Source of the DNA: a virus
Length of the DNA: 23,307 nt
Reading direction: 5' to 3' (one strand)
IMG/VR virus record: IMGVR_UViG_3300027708_000304
Coordinates: 1-23,307 of that record
This document shows, one piece after another, positions 12,562 through 23,184 of this stretch; the first letter of the stretch is position 1; every line of letters begins with the position of its first letter. Made by a program: the position numbers and the translations under genes. The notes beneath the pieces were generated by a model, which had not been told where the DNA came from, searched no databases, and saw only the letters and a program-made list of their open reading frames with translations.

Positions 12562-12846
12562 ATGTCAGAACCGATTAAAGATGATGAGAACGTCCTACGC
12601 GTAGGGGCGGGCTCTAACCCCCAAGCTTTGGCTTCAGCTATTGCCCACGCTATCTATGAAACTCGTACCTGTAAGGTGCGCGCTGTAGGCGCTGGGGCAG
12701 TTAATCAAGCTACAAAAGCTTTAGCAATTGCGCGTGGTTACACCGCGCCAAGAGGTATTGATATCGCCTACGTCCCTGGATTCACAACAATTCAGAGCCA
12801 CGATGGGGATATTTCAGCAATAGTACTTACAGTAATCGTAATTTAA
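12562..12846 (+). CDS. SpoVS-family nucleic-acid-binding protein
   Basis: A 94-residue protein that follows bacterial SpoVS along its whole length: VLRVGAGSNPQALASAIAHA (residues 11-30), then VRAVGAGAVNQATKALAIAR (39-58), GYTAPRGIDIAYVPGF (59-74) and a last strand (SAIVLTVIV). The A-V-G-A-G-A-x-N-Q-A-x-K-A-x-A-I-A-R core is the signature of the family, a dimeric Alba-like fold that binds nucleic acid. In Bacillus it affects septation and sporulation. Copies in non-sporulating bacteria and phages have no settled role. It is not overlapped by its neighbours and has a structured leader, unlike the packed genes on either side, so it is probably controlled separately. The family call is firm; the role in the phage is open. 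Confidence 0.88.
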   Translation: MSEPIKDDENVLRVGAGSNPQALASAIAHAIYETRTCKVRAVGAGAVNQATKALAIARGYTAPRGIDIAYVPGFTTIQSHDGDISAIVLTVIVI

Positions 12847-13282: not shown

Positions 13283-13858
13283 ATGACTACTCTTGCTGCG
13301 TATCAAGGTGATGGTTGGGCGGTCATAGGTTGCGACTCTAGAGCCACAGACGAAGCTGGAAACATTATGGACCTTGCTACACCAAAGGTCATAGAAAATG
13401 GTCAATATTTAATTGCTGTTGCGGGATCAAGCCGAGGCGGAAACATATTACAATTTGGGTGGAAACCTCCACGTCCACCAGTATCTGACGATTTAAACAC
13501 CTTAGATAAGTTTATTACTACTAAATTCATTCCAGAGATGCGTAAAGTATTTATTGAATCAGGCTTTGATATGAAAGACGACGGCGATGTAGCCATGACC
13601 GACTCAGTGTTTTTAATTGCAGTAAATGGGGTCGTCTATTGGATTAATGAAGATTACTCCTGGGATAGGGATGTTCGCGGGATTTACCATCAAGGTTCAG
13701 GGGGCATTGTTGCCGCTGCTGCTATGACAGCTTTAGGAATTGAAAAGACCAAAACCGCCGCCGCTGCAGAAAAGATAGTTTATAAGTCTGTAGACGTTGC
13801 TACCCAGTGGGATGTATATAGCCACGGCCCTATTGTTGTTAGGACTCAACACTACTAA
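13283..13858 (+). CDS. Proteasome-beta/HslV-like Ntn hydrolase
   Basis: A 191-residue protein that starts MTTLAAYQGDGWAVIGCDSRAT. If Met is removed, the new Thr1 is followed by D17, R19 and T21 at the same positions as in 20S beta subunits and HslV, where Thr1 is the nucleophile and D17 is catalytic. The Lys33 equivalent is probably K34 (TPKV), one place off. LIAVAGSSRGG then matches the A-G strand, and HQGSGGIVAAAAMTAL (residues 136-151) matches the GSG(S/G) serine turn and helix (S129 region). VDVATQWDVYSHGP corresponds to the D166 region. It lacks the long propeptide of actinobacterial PrcB. It could form a self-compartment protease or cap the host proteasome; no ATPase partner is in view. 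GGAG lies 7 bases before the ATG. Confidence 0.75.
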   Translation: MTTLAAYQGDGWAVIGCDSRATDEAGNIMDLATPKVIENGQYLIAVAGSSRGGNILQFGWKPPRPPVSDDLNTLDKFITTKFIPEMRKVFIESGFDMKDDGDVAMTDSVFLIAVNGVVYWINEDYSWDRDVRGIYHQGSGGIVAAAAMTALGIEKTKTAAAAEKIVYKSVDVATQWDVYSHGPIVVRTQHY

Positions 13859-13933: not shown

Positions 13934-14167
13934 ATGCTCGAGGCACTAACCAAACATTTATATAACGAAACAACAGGATGTGTTGTTGCGCAATGGATAA
14001 TCAAATTAAGCATTGAAGAACAAGAGGCTTTTGCATCTATTAAAGAGAAAAGCGCAAGAGTTAAAATAGCATCTTTATATTCAGACCTTAGTAAAGAAAC
14101 CGAATTACCATTTAAATTAACTGCTTTCCGTTCACATATGAGGGGCTACTGTACATGTCAAAATTAA
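13934..14167 (+). CDS. Small helix-turn-helix-type protein
   Basis: A 77-residue helical protein. After a first helix (ALTKHLYNE), helices follow at residues 26-40 and 45-54, then LPFKLTAFRSHMRGYCTC (58-75). That end, with a turn, a helix carrying R-x-H-x-R and a C-x-C finish, resembles the recognition-helix end of small actinophage HTH proteins, where L-x-x-H-x-x-G-x-C-x-C is common. It therefore may bind DNA, possibly as a terminase-small-subunit-like or repressor-like protein. It is first in its unit behind a good promoter and GAGGAG site, and its stop overlaps the phosphoesterase gene by 13 bases. Confidence 0.65.
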   Translation: MLEALTKHLYNETTGCVVAQWIIKLSIEEQEAFASIKEKSARVKIASLYSDLSKETELPFKLTAFRSHMRGYCTCQN

Positions 14168-15354
14168 ATGCATTAGGAAAAGCATTAATTAATGCTGACC
14201 TTAACGGCGCAGAGGAAGAAATTAAACGCACTAACACGCCCCCTGAGTATAGAGCGCGTATGGATATTGGCCCTGATGGTGGTTATTTTGTTTCTACGCC
14301 TCGCACAGCAGGTGAGCTTCCTGATGCAGCAGAGATGTTTAAAGACTTTAATCTTGATCCAGAGGTATGGACAGTTATTAGTATTAGGAAAAGCCGTTGG
14401 CAGACCTTTAACGGTGATTGGCTAGAAGCTGCCCGTGTAAATGTAAAACCCGCAAGTACGTCACATGGCATGGATATAGATTACAATGCATTAGTTACAG
14501 AAGTTGTTAAATGGAAACCAGGAAAAACAGAAGCGCATACAGGCCCTTTATACGCAGTGTACGCAATAGGTGATACACAGTATGGTAAGGACGCAGGTGG
14601 GGGGACAGAAGCCACAGTGTTGCGCGTGCTTACAGGTATTGATGAAGCAGTTGCGCGCCATAAAGAGTTGTTAAAAACAGGACGCAACATAGGGACAGTT
14701 GTACTCCCACAGTTAGGTGATTGCATCGAGGGTAGTGCGTCACAACATGGCAAAGTGTTAGGGCGCAGTGACCTTGGGGTTACCCAACAGGTGCGCATAG
14801 GACGTCGTGTGTTGATGGCTTGGATTAAAGCGTTTGCGCCTTTATGTAAAGAGTTAATCATTCCAGTAGTGCCAGGAAACCATGATGAACCACACCGCAT
14901 TATGATGACTGACCCAATAGATTCATGGCAAATTGAAGTGGTTGCTGCAGTGCAAGATGCGTGCGCAGAAAACCCAGCGCTTTCACATGTTAAGTTTTAT
15001 TATCCAAAACCAGACCATCAAACTTTAGCACTTGACTTAGGTGGAACTATTTTAGGTTTAGCGCACGGTCATCAAGCAAAAGATATGGGTAAGTGGTTGC
15101 ACGGGCAAGCTACAGGAAGAACTCCAGTAGGTTCAGCCGACGTTTTATTAACAGGTCACTTTCATCATTTCCGCGCAGACCAAATTGGCCCTCGTTTATG
15201 GATTCAAGTGCCCGCTATGGATGGCGGTAGTGCTTGGTTCCGTGACAAGAGCGGGTTGGAATCGCCTACAGGTATTGTTTCCTTGGTGGTTGGGGACGGA
15301 TATGACCCACGACGAGATTTAGCAGTTTTAGCAGGAGAACACCGAGTACCATAG
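14155..15354 (+). CDS. Calcineurin-like metallophosphoesterase
   Basis: A 399-residue protein. Residues 1-130 form an N-terminal region with strands (GPDGGYFVSTPR, WTVISIRKSRWQTFNGDWLEA) often seen ahead of the catalytic domain in phage members. The catalytic domain has the motif order GDTQ (139-142), GDCIEG (188-193), GNHDE (241-245), AHGHQ (303-307) and TGHFHH (333-338), giving all Asp/Asn/His ligands of the two-metal site. These enzymes cleave phosphomonoesters or phosphodiesters; the substrate cannot be read from sequence, and DNA-processing (Mre11/SbcD-like) or nucleotide hydrolysis are both possible. No SbcC-like partner is seen. It overlaps the HTH gene upstream and is 4 bases from the next gene. 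Confidence 0.88.
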   Translation: MSKLNALGKALINADLNGAEEEIKRTNTPPEYRARMDIGPDGGYFVSTPRTAGELPDAAEMFKDFNLDPEVWTVISIRKSRWQTFNGDWLEAARVNVKPASTSHGMDIDYNALVTEVVKWKPGKTEAHTGPLYAVYAIGDTQYGKDAGGGTEATVLRVLTGIDEAVARHKELLKTGRNIGTVVLPQLGDCIEGSASQHGKVLGRSDLGVTQQVRIGRRVLMAWIKAFAPLCKELIIPVVPGNHDEPHRIMMTDPIDSWQIEVVAAVQDACAENPALSHVKFYYPKPDHQTLALDLGGTILGLAHGHQAKDMGKWLHGQATGRTPVGSADVLLTGHFHHFRADQIGPRLWIQVPAMDGGSAWFRDKSGLESPTGIVSLVVGDGYDPRRDLAVLAGEHRVP

Positions 15355-17610: not shown

Positions 17611-18174
17611 ATGGTACTTGATTTAAGCGTTTTAAAAGACAATAATGTAAACCCTAATGAGCCTATGATGCGGCTATTGGTGTGCAAAAAGTGCAAGAGT
17701 ATTGAAGAAGTACCTGATTATGACGGGCCAGAAGGCGGTATCAATAGCGCCGAGTACGACCATTCGCTTCGTTTCTTTATTGACCAGCATATGGAAAAGG
17801 GTTGCAGCAAAGACCATTGGATTATGTACAACCTTCCAACTAAATATTGGATTATTCCTAAAGTTAAATCTAGTATTGAAAAACAAATACAAGAAGGCGC
17901 GCAAGGCCTTGATGTGTTTGGTACTAATTTTTATGCAACTAAAGCCAATTTCACCTCAGATGCTATGTCTTGTTGGATCAAGCACAACCAAACCAAAGAT
18001 TGTAGCGACTACAAAACCCCTCGTATGATGTTAAAGCCTGATACCGCCGCCGAACGAAAAGAAGCTGGTATGGAAAAAGAAGCTAAAGGGCCAAAGGTAT
18101 ACCTATGCGACTTCTGCCCAATAAAGAGTATTGTGCAAGAGAAGGCCTATACTAAGAAGGGTTTATATAAGTAA
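17611..18174 (+). CDS. Cys/His-rich hypothetical protein
   Basis: A 187-residue protein. The N-terminal part has C25-x2-C28 (VCKKCKS), H60 and C65 (QHMEKGCSKDH), fitting one zinc site. The C-terminal part has C121, C131 (DCSDYKTPRMM) and C166-x2-C169 (LCDFCPIK), fitting a second. Between them lies a helical region. No catalytic motif is visible. It has weak ribosome-binding sequence (AGGACTACAAC) but follows a possible promoter. I do not recognise a named family. It may be a nucleic-acid-binding accessory protein; this rests only on the metal sites. Confidence 0.75.
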   Translation: MVLDLSVLKDNNVNPNEPMMRLLVCKKCKSIEEVPDYDGPEGGINSAEYDHSLRFFIDQHMEKGCSKDHWIMYNLPTKYWIIPKVKSSIEKQIQEGAQGLDVFGTNFYATKANFTSDAMSCWIKHNQTKDCSDYKTPRMMLKPDTAAERKEAGMEKEAKGPKVYLCDFCPIKSIVQEKAYTKKGLYK

Positions 18175-18193: not shown

Positions 18194-19126
18194 ATGGATA
18201 TCTACTCATCACTAGCCGCTAAGGCTTTGCCAGTATCCATAGAGCCGTCTGAAACTTCTTATTTTAGCGCCCCAGGGGCTGGTCTAGACCCTAGATTGTT
18301 TAGAAGCAACAAGCTAGTTCCTTCTATTCGTTCTTCTATTTTACGCGTTTTATTTGACCATTTACGCACCCATTACTACAGCCCAGACAATTATGTACAC
18401 GTATGGCTAGCGGGCTCGGCAATAAGTTACCAATGGTCTGCTGCTCGTAATCCAGTAGATTTAGATTGTTTAATTGGGGTTAACTATTTAATGTTTAGGC
18501 AGTCTAACCCAGAATACAAAGCATTAAGCGATAAGCAAATTGCAGATATGTTTAACACAGATTTTAGAGAAGCTTTGCACCCATTAACTAAAAACTTTAT
18601 GGGCGCCTACGAACTTACTTTTTTTGTAAATGTTAGACCAGATATTCGTTCTATAAAGCCGTACGCTGCCTATTCATTAACTAATGATGATTGGACGGTT
18701 CAACCTGAATTAAAAGCGCCCCCTCGCAATAGAGCGTGGGAAGACCGAGTTGCTAAAGATACTTCTAAAACTACAGAAATCTTATCTAGATACTCAGCCG
18801 CGCTTACTTCACTGGGAAGCGCCACAACAGATACGGCACGCAGAAACGCTGAGGCTGCCCTAAAGCTTGCTGTAGAGCAAGGTGCCGCATTATTTGATGA
18901 AATCCACCACGGAAGAACATATGCATTTAGTCCAGGTGGCCAAGGTTATATGGATATGTATAACTATAGGTGGCAAGCGGGTAAATCTGCTGGTATTGTT
19001 CAAGCCTTGCGTCAATTAAAAGATGTATCTACTAAAGGGCGTAAGTCATTTGAAGAGTCAACGTACGGTATGGAACTTCCAGATACAAGTGTTCTAATAA
19101 GAAGGGCACTTGGCGCTAAACGATAA
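18194..19126 (+). CDS. Nucleotidyltransferase-fold protein
   Basis: A 310-residue protein; the ATG at 18194 is used because an earlier in-frame start (18131) would overlap the upstream gene and adds a basic stretch with no counterpart. The key feature is VHVWLAGSAISYQW (68-81) followed by NPVDLDCLIGV (86-96): G74-S75 and D89-x-D91, the hG[G/S] ... DhDh signature of the polymerase-beta-like nucleotidyltransferases. A later strand (YELTFFVNVRPDI, 139-151) may supply the third acid. The C-terminal 130 residues are helical. Substrates in this fold range from nucleotides and tRNA to proteins and antibiotics, so none is assigned. It is 15 bases before the HAD-like gene and probably in the same unit. 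Confidence 0.72.
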   Translation: MDIYSSLAAKALPVSIEPSETSYFSAPGAGLDPRLFRSNKLVPSIRSSILRVLFDHLRTHYYSPDNYVHVWLAGSAISYQWSAARNPVDLDCLIGVNYLMFRQSNPEYKALSDKQIADMFNTDFREALHPLTKNFMGAYELTFFVNVRPDIRSIKPYAAYSLTNDDWTVQPELKAPPRNRAWEDRVAKDTSKTTEILSRYSAALTSLGSATTDTARRNAEAALKLAVEQGAALFDEIHHGRTYAFSPGGQGYMDMYNYRWQAGKSAGIVQALRQLKDVSTKGRKSFEESTYGMELPDTSVLIRRALGAKR

Positions 19127-19141
19127 TCGGAGAACTAAATC

Positions 19142-19597
19142 GTGGCAATATTAATGTTTGTAGACGGCGTACTGCGTAGCAGTACAGGTTCGCCTATTCG
19201 TCAAGGCTTTTCTTTATATAGAACCTTAAAAGAAAAAGACCAAGTTTTCCTTTTGTGCTCCCATAAAGTTAAAGACGACCGTTGGCTACGGGAAAATAAA
19301 ATCAATTTAGTGGACGACCTTGTTGGCCCTGACCTACCTTCTACTACTGAATGGGTGGAGTGGCGCCAAGTAGAATACTGCCGTGGTAGAGGCCAGGTCG
19401 ATTACGTAGTAACCTCTGACCCTAAGTTAGCAGCCAAACTATTAGAATCTGGTATTACAGCCCTTATGTTCTTACAGCCTATTTATATAAGCGAACGTTT
19501 TAGGCCAGATAGTAGAGACGGCAGACGAAGCTGGAGAGACATTACTGATGAGATTTCTCGTCAGCAAGCGCTATATGCGGGAGACCACCGTATTTAA
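19142..19597 (+). CDS. HAD-like protein lacking the nucleophilic aspartate
   Basis: A 151-residue protein starting at GTG 19142, with GGAG 9 bases before it. The first strand LMFVDGVLRSS (residues 4-14) has the D-G-V-L of HAD motif I, but the first Asp of D-x-D-G is Phe6, so the usual phosphoenzyme cannot form. QVFLLCSHK (34-42) fits the motif II strand, with S40 near the usual Ser/Thr. VDYVVTSDPKLAAKLLESG (86-104) resembles the HAD strand and helix before the motif IV acids. The C-terminal 40 residues are charged. Its stop overlaps the start of 19597 by one base, implying coupled expression with that protein. It may be a binding or regulatory version of the fold. The HAD assignment is moderate. 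Confidence 0.6.
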   Translation: MAILMFVDGVLRSSTGSPIRQGFSLYRTLKEKDQVFLLCSHKVKDDRWLRENKINLVDDLVGPDLPSTTEWVEWRQVEYCRGRGQVDYVVTSDPKLAAKLLESGITALMFLQPIYISERFRPDSRDGRRSWRDITDEISRQQALYAGDHRI

Positions 19598-21054
19598 TGA
19601 AAGTCATAATGCTAGGGGCAGAAGTCCCTTCTAATCGAACTTTGCTTGAAACCACCTCAGCAAACCACGTAGGTGTGAGCTTTTGGCGTTTATTAAAACG
19701 CGGTCTTCCCGCTAAAGGTTACCTATTAAAAAACTATTTTAACGATGATTTCTATATTTATGTGTACCCAGGTATCCCTAAAGATGTAATCCTTGACCGA
19801 CTAGACTTAGAGTCTTTTGCTGCCGAGTATGAAGGCTTTATTGCTAATAACATTGAACGTATTAATGTATTTAGCGAGATTGCTGGCAACGGTATTAACC
19901 AAGAGTTTATAGATGAACAACGCCGTACAGTATGGTCAGAGGTACCACCTAGCAAGTTCTTGCCCGTCTGGAGCCCTTCTACGGGCTATGAGGGGCTTCG
20001 TGACCTTGCGGACAAGTATCTTGACCTAGGGCTCCCAGGAGAGGCTTTAGAGACCGAAACTCAACTGGCTATGGTTACCCGTACCCTTAAGCGTCAGCAT
20101 GGAACACGCTTTCATATACTAGGTTCCGCTAAACCAGATAACCTACGTCAAGTCGCTTTTGAAACCGTAAGCACTATGTCGTGGCTTTCTCCTATGAGAA
20201 ACGGTGAGACTATAGTCTGGGATGGCACTAAACTTGTACGGTACCCAAGCCGTATGAAAGATCAAGCGCGGTCTAGATACCGCAACGTTTATATTAAAGC
20301 AGGCTTAGATGTAGACAAGATATTAGAAGATGACTCTAAAGAGGTCTGTCGATTGGCAGTCTGGTCTTACTTGCAATACGAAGCGAGGTTAAATGGAATG
20401 AATAAAGACGAGTTCTTATATGATAATAGCGGTGATTCCGATGTGGCAGGAAATGCGGAAAACTTACCTGCTGATATTGATAAGAGGGATTTAGAAGCGC
20501 GTAAAATTAACGCGCGCGAGCCTCACGAAATGGGCAATCTTCCCGTGTTTGGATACTCTTTAGACACCGTACTTGAAGAGGATGGGACCATTAAAGATGT
20601 GACCACGCTTACTTCACAAGACGTATCATTACGGGCATGCGATACCTGTTTTATTGCTTCTAATTGCCCTGCTTTTAAGCCTGCTAGTGCATGCGCTTTT
20701 AAGTTACCAGTAAGCATCAAGACTAAAGATCAACTTAAGGCTCTTATAAATGCGATCATAGAAATGCAGGGTCAAAGGGTTGCTTTTATGAGATTTGCTG
20801 AAGAAATCAATGGCGGCTATGCTGATCCCAATGTATCTCAAGAGATTGATCGGTTGTTCAAACTGATTAAAACAACTAAAGAATTAGATGACTCACGTGA
20901 GTTTATTCGCATGACTGTAGAGCGACAAGGCTCCGCTGGAGTGCTATCTTCTATCTTTGGTGAGCGGGCAAACGTCCTTAAAGAACTCCCTAATGAGGGG
21001 TTAAATGAAGACCAAACCACTAAGATAATCAAAGATTTAACGGAGAACTCTTAA
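19597..21054 (+). CDS. TGT/DpdA-like barrel protein with four-cysteine C-terminal domain
   Basis: A 485-residue protein. Residues 1-260 read like a tRNA-guanine transglycosylase/DpdA TIM barrel: MLGAEVPSNR, HVGVSFWRL, a helix with AAEYEGFIANNIERI (75-89), FLPVWSPSTG (121-130, matching the P-V-x-H-x-G strand), KYLDLGLPG (140-148, matching Y-x-x-I-G-x-G-G), FHILGSAKPDNL (172-183, matching H-x-L-G) and ETVSTMSW (189-196, matching the x-V-D-S-T-S-W strand). The aspartate of that last strand is Ser192 here, and no D-S-G-G/A-F motif is seen. Residues 345-370 hold C348-x2-C351-x5-C357-x8-C366, an Fe-S or zinc site. Residues 370-485 are helical (IEMQGQRVAFMRFAEE). No 7-deazaguanine synthesis gene is in the window. 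The barrel assignment is by eye and tentative; a wholly new family is possible. Confidence 0.5.
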   Translation: MKVIMLGAEVPSNRTLLETTSANHVGVSFWRLLKRGLPAKGYLLKNYFNDDFYIYVYPGIPKDVILDRLDLESFAAEYEGFIANNIERINVFSEIAGNGINQEFIDEQRRTVWSEVPPSKFLPVWSPSTGYEGLRDLADKYLDLGLPGEALETETQLAMVTRTLKRQHGTRFHILGSAKPDNLRQVAFETVSTMSWLSPMRNGETIVWDGTKLVRYPSRMKDQARSRYRNVYIKAGLDVDKILEDDSKEVCRLAVWSYLQYEARLNGMNKDEFLYDNSGDSDVAGNAENLPADIDKRDLEARKINAREPHEMGNLPVFGYSLDTVLEEDGTIKDVTTLTSQDVSLRACDTCFIASNCPAFKPASACAFKLPVSIKTKDQLKALINAIIEMQGQRVAFMRFAEEINGGYADPNVSQEIDRLFKLIKTTKELDDSREFIRMTVERQGSAGVLSSIFGERANVLKELPNEGLNEDQTTKIIKDLTENS

Positions 21055-21153: not shown

Positions 21154-23184
21154 ATGGCATTGTCATTTAATTTAGCCAGCGAATTTGTAGCAGGCTACGC
21201 GTCTAAGAAGGTTCCGTGGGGATATACGGACGCGGGCGGTAACGCGGTAGGTGAGATTACTTTCCTAAGAACTTACTCCCGTCTCAAAGAGGACGGAACT
21301 AAAGAAACCTGGCCTGAGGTATGCGAGCGCGTTATCAACGGCATGTACTCTTTACAGAAAGACCACGCTAAGTTAAATCGTCTTCCTTGGAATGACTCTA
21401 AAGCTCAGGCTTCCGCTAAGGAAGCATATGATCGCCTGTTTAACCTGAAGTGGACTCCGCCTGGACGTGGGCTTTGGGTAATGGGTACGCCCCTAGTTAA
21501 TGAGCAGCGCAACTCCGCTGCGCTTCAGAACTGTTCTTTTGTATCTACTAACTCTATGACCAAGATTGACCCTGCTAAGCCTTTTGCTTTCTTAATGGAA
21601 GCCTCGATGCTTGGGGTGGGTGTTGGCTTTGACGACAAGGGTGCAGATAAAGATTTTACTATCTATGAACCTAAAGATAATTTAGACAATACTGAGGTAT
21701 GGGTTGTCCCTGATACTCGTGAGGGTTGGGTGGACTCTACAACTTTGCTTATTAACTCATATCTAAAACCTGACCAACCTGCTTGGGGGTTTGATTACTC
21801 TTTAGTCCGTCCCGCTGGCGCACCTATCAAGACTTTTGGTGGAACCGCGGCTGGGCACGAACCTTTAGAGAAACTTCACAACTACATTCGTGGACTCTTT
21901 AATGGGCGCGCTGGTGAAAAACTCACTCGTAGAGATATTGCTGATATTGGTAATCTTATTGGTGTGTGCGTGGTCTCTGGTAACGTCCGACGTTCAGCAG
22001 AACTGCTTATGGGTCGCCTAGATGACCAAGACTTTCTTAACTTAAAGAACTCTGATGTATTTCCTGAGCGCAACTCTTATGACCCTAAGAATCCTGGCTG
22101 GGCTTGGATGTCTAACAACTCAGTAGAGGTTAAAGTAGGGGATGACTTCTCTGGAATTATTGACGGAATCTCTCGCAACGGTGAGCCTGGCGTAATTTGG
22201 ATGGACGTAACGCGAAAGTACGGACGTTTAATTGACGCACCTAACAACAAAGACTGGAGAGCCGCGGGATACAATCCTTGCGCCGAACAGTCTCTTGAAT
22301 CATTTGAGTGCTGTACTCTCGTTGAGACTTATTTAAACCGCCACGACTCTCTCGAGGACTTCAAGCGAACTCTCAAGTTTGCCTACCTTTATGCTAAGAC
22401 TGTAACTCTCTTGCCTACACATTGGGAAGAGACTAACGCAATCATGCAACGTAACCGTCGTATTGGTACTTCAATATCAGGTATTGCTAACTTTGCTGAC
22501 CGCGTAGGGCTACCAACTCTTCGTGAGTGGATGGACGCTGGGTACGAAACTATTACCAACCACGATAAAACATACTCAGAGTGGCTAGGCATCCGTGAGT
22601 CAATTAAGACCACAACTGTAAAGCCTTCTGGAACAGTCTCTATTCTGGCTGGAGAATCTCCCGGCGTACATTGGACCCCCGGCGGTCAATTCTTTCTTCG
22701 CGCGATCCGCTTTGGTAATGATGACCCTATGCTTCCTCTCTTTCAAGCGAGTGGCTATACCGTTGAACCTGCGAGTGAGTCGCCACAAACAACTTCTGTC
22801 GTGTTCTTCCCAATTAAATCTCTCTCTTTACGTTCAGAGAAAGACGTCTCCATATATGAAAAAGCCTCTCTTGCGGCTATGGCTCAACGTCATTGGTCAG
22901 ACAACTCTGTATCAGTAACAGTCTCTTTCTCTCCTGATGAGAAGAAAGACGTTGGGACTGTGCTTCATATGTTCGACGGACAACTTAAGACAATCTCTTT
23001 CTTACCTATGCTAGAGGGCACATATCAACAAATGCCTTACACACAGATTACAGAAAAGCAGTATGAGGGATATAAACTCTCTCTCTTACCTATTGACTTT
23101 ACTGACGTCTATGCGGGTATGGCTGCGGACGCTATCGGTGAGAAGTATTGCTCAACTGATTTCTGCGAAGTACCTAAGCCGTAA
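21154..23184 (+). CDS. Adenosylcobalamin-dependent ribonucleoside-triphosphate reductase (class II, monomeric)
   Basis: A 676-residue enzyme that converts NTPs to dNTPs using an adenosylcobalamin-derived radical. It follows the Lactobacillus leichmannii type: PPGRGLWVMGT (102-112), LQNCSFVST (C127, matching C119 there), NPCAEQSLESFECC (C376 radical cysteine, E378, C387, matching C408/E410/C419), TTVKPSGTVSILAGESPG (the conserved phosphate loop), and C666-x4-C671 at the end, matching the C731/C736 redox pair. All catalytic residues are therefore present. It is about 60 residues shorter than the 739-residue reference. It needs no oxygen and no second subunit, but needs cobalamin from the host or medium. 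It works with the dNMP kinase at 1266. A terminator follows directly. Confidence 0.95.
   Translation: MALSFNLASEFVAGYASKKVPWGYTDAGGNAVGEITFLRTYSRLKEDGTKETWPEVCERVINGMYSLQKDHAKLNRLPWNDSKAQASAKEAYDRLFNLKWTPPGRGLWVMGTPLVNEQRNSAALQNCSFVSTNSMTKIDPAKPFAFLMEASMLGVGVGFDDKGADKDFTIYEPKDNLDNTEVWVVPDTREGWVDSTTLLINSYLKPDQPAWGFDYSLVRPAGAPIKTFGGTAAGHEPLEKLHNYIRGLFNGRAGEKLTRRDIADIGNLIGVCVVSGNVRRSAELLMGRLDDQDFLNLKNSDVFPERNSYDPKNPGWAWMSNNSVEVKVGDDFSGIIDGISRNGEPGVIWMDVTRKYGRLIDAPNNKDWRAAGYNPCAEQSLESFECCTLVETYLNRHDSLEDFKRTLKFAYLYAKTVTLLPTHWEETNAIMQRNRRIGTSISGIANFADRVGLPTLREWMDAGYETITNHDKTYSEWLGIRESIKTTTVKPSGTVSILAGESPGVHWTPGGQFFLRAIRFGNDDPMLPLFQASGYTVEPASESPQTTSVVFFPIKSLSLRSEKDVSIYEKASLAAMAQRHWSDNSVSVTVSFSPDEKKDVGTVLHMFDGQLKTISFLPMLEGTYQQMPYTQITEKQYEGYKLSLLPIDFTDVYAGMAADAIGEKYCSTDFCEVPKP

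Follow-up and report, generated by a model that had tools for sequence, protein, structure and literature searches.

Here, we propose that the 485-residue protein encoded at positions 19597-21054 (+ strand) of a 23,307-base IMG/VR virus record (the window, which also carries phage replication genes) is a former DpdA with a dead barrel. DpdA places 7-deazaguanines in phage DNA by transglycosylation. The protein has a (beta-alpha)8 barrel of TGT type and homologous to DpdA, joined to a tail with a four-cysteine (Cys4) site and a helical domain, and we file it as a DpdA variant and not as a DpdA because the aspartate pair of the D-S-G and D-S-x-S-W motifs is absent from it. Having lost its catalytic aspartates together with the pathway that makes the base, and bearing a tail common to packaging-adjacent proteins, the protein has probably taken on a new use in handling DNA. 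On balance we favour this account as a whole, a former DpdA without aspartate-based base exchange that is kept for binding, and some kind of binding role, with no base exchange, is likely. Databases label such genes queuine tRNA-ribosyltransferase or DpdA, and readers then infer DNA hypermodification; in this very common group of phages, both the residues for hypermodification and those pathway genes that were tested have been lost.

The barrel and its active site

The gene is an intact open reading frame from ATG to stop, and its first 268 codons (19597..20400, + strand) encode the barrel. In profile searches the protein matches PHROG_887 at 1.7e-51, a family that also covers ordinary phage DpdA (ChristophMerian 1e-98, BcepGomr 2e-82), and profile-profile comparison of the fused family with DpdA (hhalign) gives 98.7%, E 1.9e-16. 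An AlphaFold model built from 27 relatives is confident over residues 1-265 (block pLDDT mostly 72-92), where strands and helices alternate, and residues 1-278 of the model adopt the TGT/DpdA barrel (Z 17.1, 3.4 A over 261 residues against DpdA 7ui4). The best VIA-align matches are archaeal, bacterial and human TGT along with 7ui4 (Z 16.4-17.3, rmsd 3.4-3.9), with chains including 7ui4, 1iq8 and 4gi4 at Z about 17, and only TGT/DpdA chains occur among the best 50 entries. A sequence search of solved structures found no relative for the whole protein or for the tail. An earlier note, made from the letters of the DNA, had assigned a TGT/DpdA barrel and suggested comparing a structure prediction with TGT and DpdA; profile homology, the model and the structural matches all bear the assignment out for the N-terminal part of the protein.

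The motif positions given in that note are exact (PVW 123-125, YLDLGLPG 141-148, FHILG 172-176, VSTMSW 191-196, YPG 57-59), and its claim that both catalytic aspartates are absent holds in alignment with real phage DpdA (FLDSGAFSA ... SCDSSSW), both positions being substituted in the subclade of the window protein. Y57-P58-G59 (19765..19773, + strand) aligns with the D-S-G general-acid motif and S192 (20170..20172, + strand) with the nucleophile aspartate of the DSSSW strand, a placement also reflected in the tree for S192; because both fall on the catalytic motifs of DpdA, we do not attribute the placement to chance. Position 192 is S, A, H or T in the 145 unique fused relatives and never D, the sole D there in the alignment table coming from the split gene L108, which an intein interrupts and which lies outside the fused set. 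Position 57 varies among H, E, Y, D, S, N and I. The dead barrel is well supported.

The loss of the aspartates is stepwise and clade-wide. In a tree of 86 barrels, made by a quick method and with many open forks inside, the intact split forms (BS162P1 gp87, L116) are sister to the fused clade with a support of 98, which places a single loss of the nucleophile at the fused-clade root. The D-S-G aspartate was lost later, twice, once to E and once to H, Y and other residues. Both aspartates are kept in the DpdA of Finch and Hilltopfarm, which also have preQ0 genes.

Other residues of the active-site face are still conserved, namely R14, G59 (145/145), E94, H173 (in 145) and W196 (essentially invariant). 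H173 corresponds to the strand-7 histidine of DpdA (H196, PMC6884629), the equivalence of numbering being taken from the alignment. E94, at the end of strand 4, adjoins the conserved strand-4 aspartate of DpdA and is specific to the fused clade (143/145), with V or N in its place in DpdA. Since E94 and H173 persist on this face, other chemistry is conceivable: the protein may still be an enzyme whose residues have been relocated, with E94 (strand 4 end) and H173 (strand 7 end) acting on a glycosidic bond or on another substrate. The near-invariance of R14 and W196, and a pocket-face conservation that has outlasted the aspartates, argue for such an enzyme. However, the strand-4 aspartate has decayed as well (position 96 is D in 85, N in 32, S in 10 and T in 8), positions 57 and 192 vary, and QueC, QueD and FolE are missing from the genomes scanned, so that we regard a relocated enzyme as unlikely.

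We reject the reading of the gene as a pseudogene or a decaying relic without function. The lost catalytic residues and tested pathway genes would agree with decay, but the median dN/dS is 0.065 over 60 pairs (barrel 0.054, tail 0.028), the frame is open in nearly all relatives, the neighbourhood is kept in 89/89 loci and the tail is more conserved than the barrel. Such strong purifying selection means that the gene is no relic, and we give that explanation almost no weight.

Relatives and the preQ0 pathway

Relatives of the gene are encoded in 437 IMG/VR stretches and are kept in hundreds of large viruses of Actinobacteria. Among actinobacterial genomes, four hold full-length copies, which are probably prophages, and a fifth holds the tail alone. 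One such case, scaffold 1 of Terracoccus sp. 273MFTsu3.1 (L197), encodes the same protein as IMG record 2522125155 (L121) and probably represents a prophage that bears the fused gene. Among annotated relatives, the nearest are Streptomyces phages with genomes of 112-116 kb; one of them, GiJojo, encodes a tail sheath. BRock gp36, GiJojo 181 and Alone3 192, annotated as TGT, dpdA-like or hypothetical, are 32-33% identical to the window protein and have the same fused architecture and the same HAD-like and nucleotidyltransferase-like (NTase-like) neighbours, but they keep D-S-G and have lost the nucleophile alone. With BRock-type proteins that retain D-S-G and window-type proteins that have neither aspartate, intermediates along the loss are available, and the culturable Streptomyces phages allow testing.

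QueC, PTPS/QueD and FolE had no match in 17 window-type contigs (64-100 kb, possibly incomplete), QueC, QueD and FolE had none in four Streptomyces phages, and QueC was likewise not found in the aspartate-less L118 and L121; an encoded preQ0 source (FolE, QueD, QueC) was not found in the window-type genomes. By contrast, QueC is present in 4/4 of the intact-aspartate relatives checked (BS162P1, MT835482, ChristophMerian and L116), with QueC, QueD and FolE all present in BS162P1 and ChristophMerian and with QueC and QueD but no FolE match in MT835482. Compared with phage DpdA of the 9g/ChristophMerian type (PHROG_887), the window protein shares the fold, the sequence family, the strand-7 His, the Gly of D-S-G and the Trp after strand 8, whereas both aspartates are replaced, QueC, QueD and FolE are not found and some 220 residues (Cys4 site and helices) are added at the C terminus.

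Each of the 17 window-type contigs and four Streptomyces phages has one PHROG_887 gene. TGT-family enzymes are dimers and a non-catalytic subunit is a known fate, as with eukaryotic QTRT2, which is non-catalytic and stands beside QTRT1. The barrel protein could by analogy be the non-catalytic partner of a host TGT/DpdA or of another modification enzyme, and both points speak in its favour; with a single PHROG_887 gene per genome and no phage partner found, we consider this very unlikely.

The fused clade resembles a published case, the Mycobacterium phage Orion, which by its description has a singleton DpdA homolog without preQ0 genes and DNA without 7-deazaguanine (PMC6884629). Its authors left open whether singleton DpdA has diverged in function (PMC6884629), and the fused clade offers a stepwise case for that question.

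The cysteine-helical tail

A variable linker of low conservation and low pLDDT (residues 269-345; 20401..20631, + strand) joins the barrel to a Cys4 site, C348-x2-C-x5-C-x8-C366 (20632..20700, + strand), which probably binds zinc, and to a helical domain (residues 369-466; 20701..20994, + strand) homologous to the C-terminal part of the small-terminase-like (TerS-like) PHROG_6902 proteins. The cysteines lie at 348, 351, 357 and 366, just where the earlier note had put them. All four are invariant in the 145 fused proteins, the site recurs in the split genes and in TerS-like proteins, and conservation along the protein is highest at residues 346-466. The earlier note was right that this conserved site and the helical domain are foreign to ordinary DpdA.

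Judged from sequence comparison, the tail is not unknown, since it stands alone beside DpdA in gut phages and is common to the PHROG_6902 'small terminase' family. In Bacteroides phage BS162P1, in MT835482 and in IMG L116 the same two modules, with the same PHROG_887 halves, occur as adjacent genes; these differ from the window protein in being two genes, in their intact aspartate pair and in the presence of QueC, with QueD in both records tested. In BS162P1 and MT835482, QueC and a QueE-like gene lie close to the pair of tail gene and intact DpdA gene; in such gut phages the tail accompanies DpdA, not the terminase. We also observed in L108 (3884-6082; MT835482.1) an intein-like insert within the catalytic D-S-S/T-T-W of a DpdA-like barrel, surrounded by a separate Cys4 gene, QueC and QueE.

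The link to packaging comes from PHROG_6902, of which the tail matches 43/49 members (best 2.9e-4). Aligned with the proteins of TIN2, TIN4, GMA7, Woes, Diabla and SteveFrench by hhalign, it reaches 92.5%, E 4.9e-7 and a score of 48.4 against 13.2+-3.0 for 80 column shuffles, and comparisons with PHROG_6902 proteins range over 92-94% and E 2e-7 to 5e-7. In Gordonia and Tsukamurella phages these genes lie just upstream of the large-terminase (TerL) gene and overlap its start, and the TerS name of the proteins was given by gene position (PMC4524720). The PHROG_6902 proteins of TIN2, Woes, GMA7 and Diabla have the Cys4-helical C-terminal domain in common with the window protein and a similar total length; they differ in that their gene overlaps TerL and in that their N-terminal half compares with the TGT barrel only at hhalign E 0.017. 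Homology of the barrel-tail protein to a TerS-annotated protein extends to the C-terminal domain only, the annotation being positional, and its gene lies about 30 kb from TerL in window-type genomes. Next to the large terminase no recognisable TerS was found, either in window-type genomes or in GiJojo, where the large terminase is gene 61. In the matching window-type genomes, PHROG_6902-like sequence occurs only in the barrel-tail gene.

The AlphaFold tail is of low confidence (pLDDT 66 for the tail model), and fold searches with that model returned common helical pairs only, with a best Z of 7.9 in the PDB. Its BFVD search returned other phage proteins, including a 'terminase small subunit' of Gordonia phage Jumbo at E 0.013. 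Separately, the N-terminal half of the TerS-like proteins (TIN2, L201 59-1402; Woes, L202 4922-6319) bears a faint co-linear likeness to the end of the DpdA barrel. The score, 24.3 where shuffles reached 21.0 at most (E 0.017), with co-linearity at G-(L/F)-D...D, is insufficient to claim that this half is a barrel.

What might a dead DpdA with such a tail do? The barrel would still grip DNA around a base, the Cys4 site would hold zinc, and the long tail helices would offer a surface for oligomers or a partner, in a protein that would act late in infection, handling the genome of the phage itself. The most likely specific job would be recognising the substrate for packaging, as TerS does, and we put such a role forward only tentatively, as possible rather than probable. 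A narrower version, in which the protein is the DNA-recognition part of a small terminase, its dead barrel reading the packaging site and its Cys4-helical tail linking the barrel to the packaging motor, is doubtful. On that version, the TerS-like proteins of Gordonia and Tsukamurella phages may represent a still further degraded form of this protein. Should the tail prove to be a packaging module, it would identify the small terminase that is missing from a large group of phages and would show a modification enzyme re-used as a recognition domain.

Neighbouring genes

The barrel gene follows a HAD-like gene with a degenerate nucleophile position (19142..19597, + strand), the stop of which overlaps the barrel-gene ATG. 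Upstream of it lie an NTase-like gene with an intact A-G-S...D-x-D motif in 114/114 (18194..19126, + strand) and, preceding this trio, a Cys-rich gene that matches no family (17611..18174, + strand). A B12-dependent ribonucleotide reductase lies downstream (21154..23184, + strand; Pfam RNR_Alpha 2e-28; phrog_367). The earlier note had suggested checking whether the barrel and HAD-like genes stay paired in related phages, and they do: the three upstream genes precede the barrel gene in 89/89 loci with enough upstream DNA, and the reductase follows it in 79/80. Promoter-like sites were no more numerous than in shuffles. That note had also singled out the barrel gene and the HAD-like gene as the best candidate for an undescribed system, which finds no support in that form, as the linkage extends to the NTase-like, Cys-rich and reductase genes, so that the whole looks like a conserved core-genome block, and as the HAD fold is putative.

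The HAD-like protein has the motif FVDGVLR without the first HAD aspartate (position 6 mostly F, S or Y, with D in 6/128; position 8 D in 108). The lost nucleophile described in the earlier note is seen in the motif, but neither profiles nor solved structures confirmed a HAD fold, the Pfam and PDB profile matches being no better than chance. As its nucleophile position is degenerate in almost all 128 relatives, it is a second possible pseudoenzyme beside the barrel protein. The NTase-like protein has the hG[GS]...Dx[DE] motif (G74, S75, D89 and D91 in 114/114), while its matches to Pfam, PHROG and PDB profiles do not exceed chance, and the Cys-rich protein keeps C25, C28, C121, C131, C166 and C169 in 102/102. 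In the isolate collection, relatives of the NTase-like and HAD-like genes are confined to the six Streptomyces records with the fused barrel.

These neighbours also bear on whether the protein binds RNA or tRNA and acts with the NTase-like and HAD-like proteins in RNA repair or tRNA metabolism. The barrel's relatives bind tRNA, the adjoining NTase motif is intact, and GiJojo has many tRNA genes, two RNA ligases, a polynucleotide kinase and a Ro-like protein. Yet the nearest relatives of the barrel are DNA-modifying DpdA, five 20-kb stretches of freshwater relatives contain no tRNA gene, and the NTase is absent near the barrel gene in L121; we consider an RNA role quite unlikely and retain the former DpdA kept for binding as our preferred account.

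Elsewhere in the window we noted an HslV-like peptidase at 13283-13858 (phrog_1040, 4.3e-18) and a calcineurin-like exonuclease at 14155-15354 (phrog_284, 2.4e-55). The product of 12562-12846 (GAGAVNQATKALA) looks SpoVS-like by eye, and a similar open reading frame is present at L108 2462-2878.
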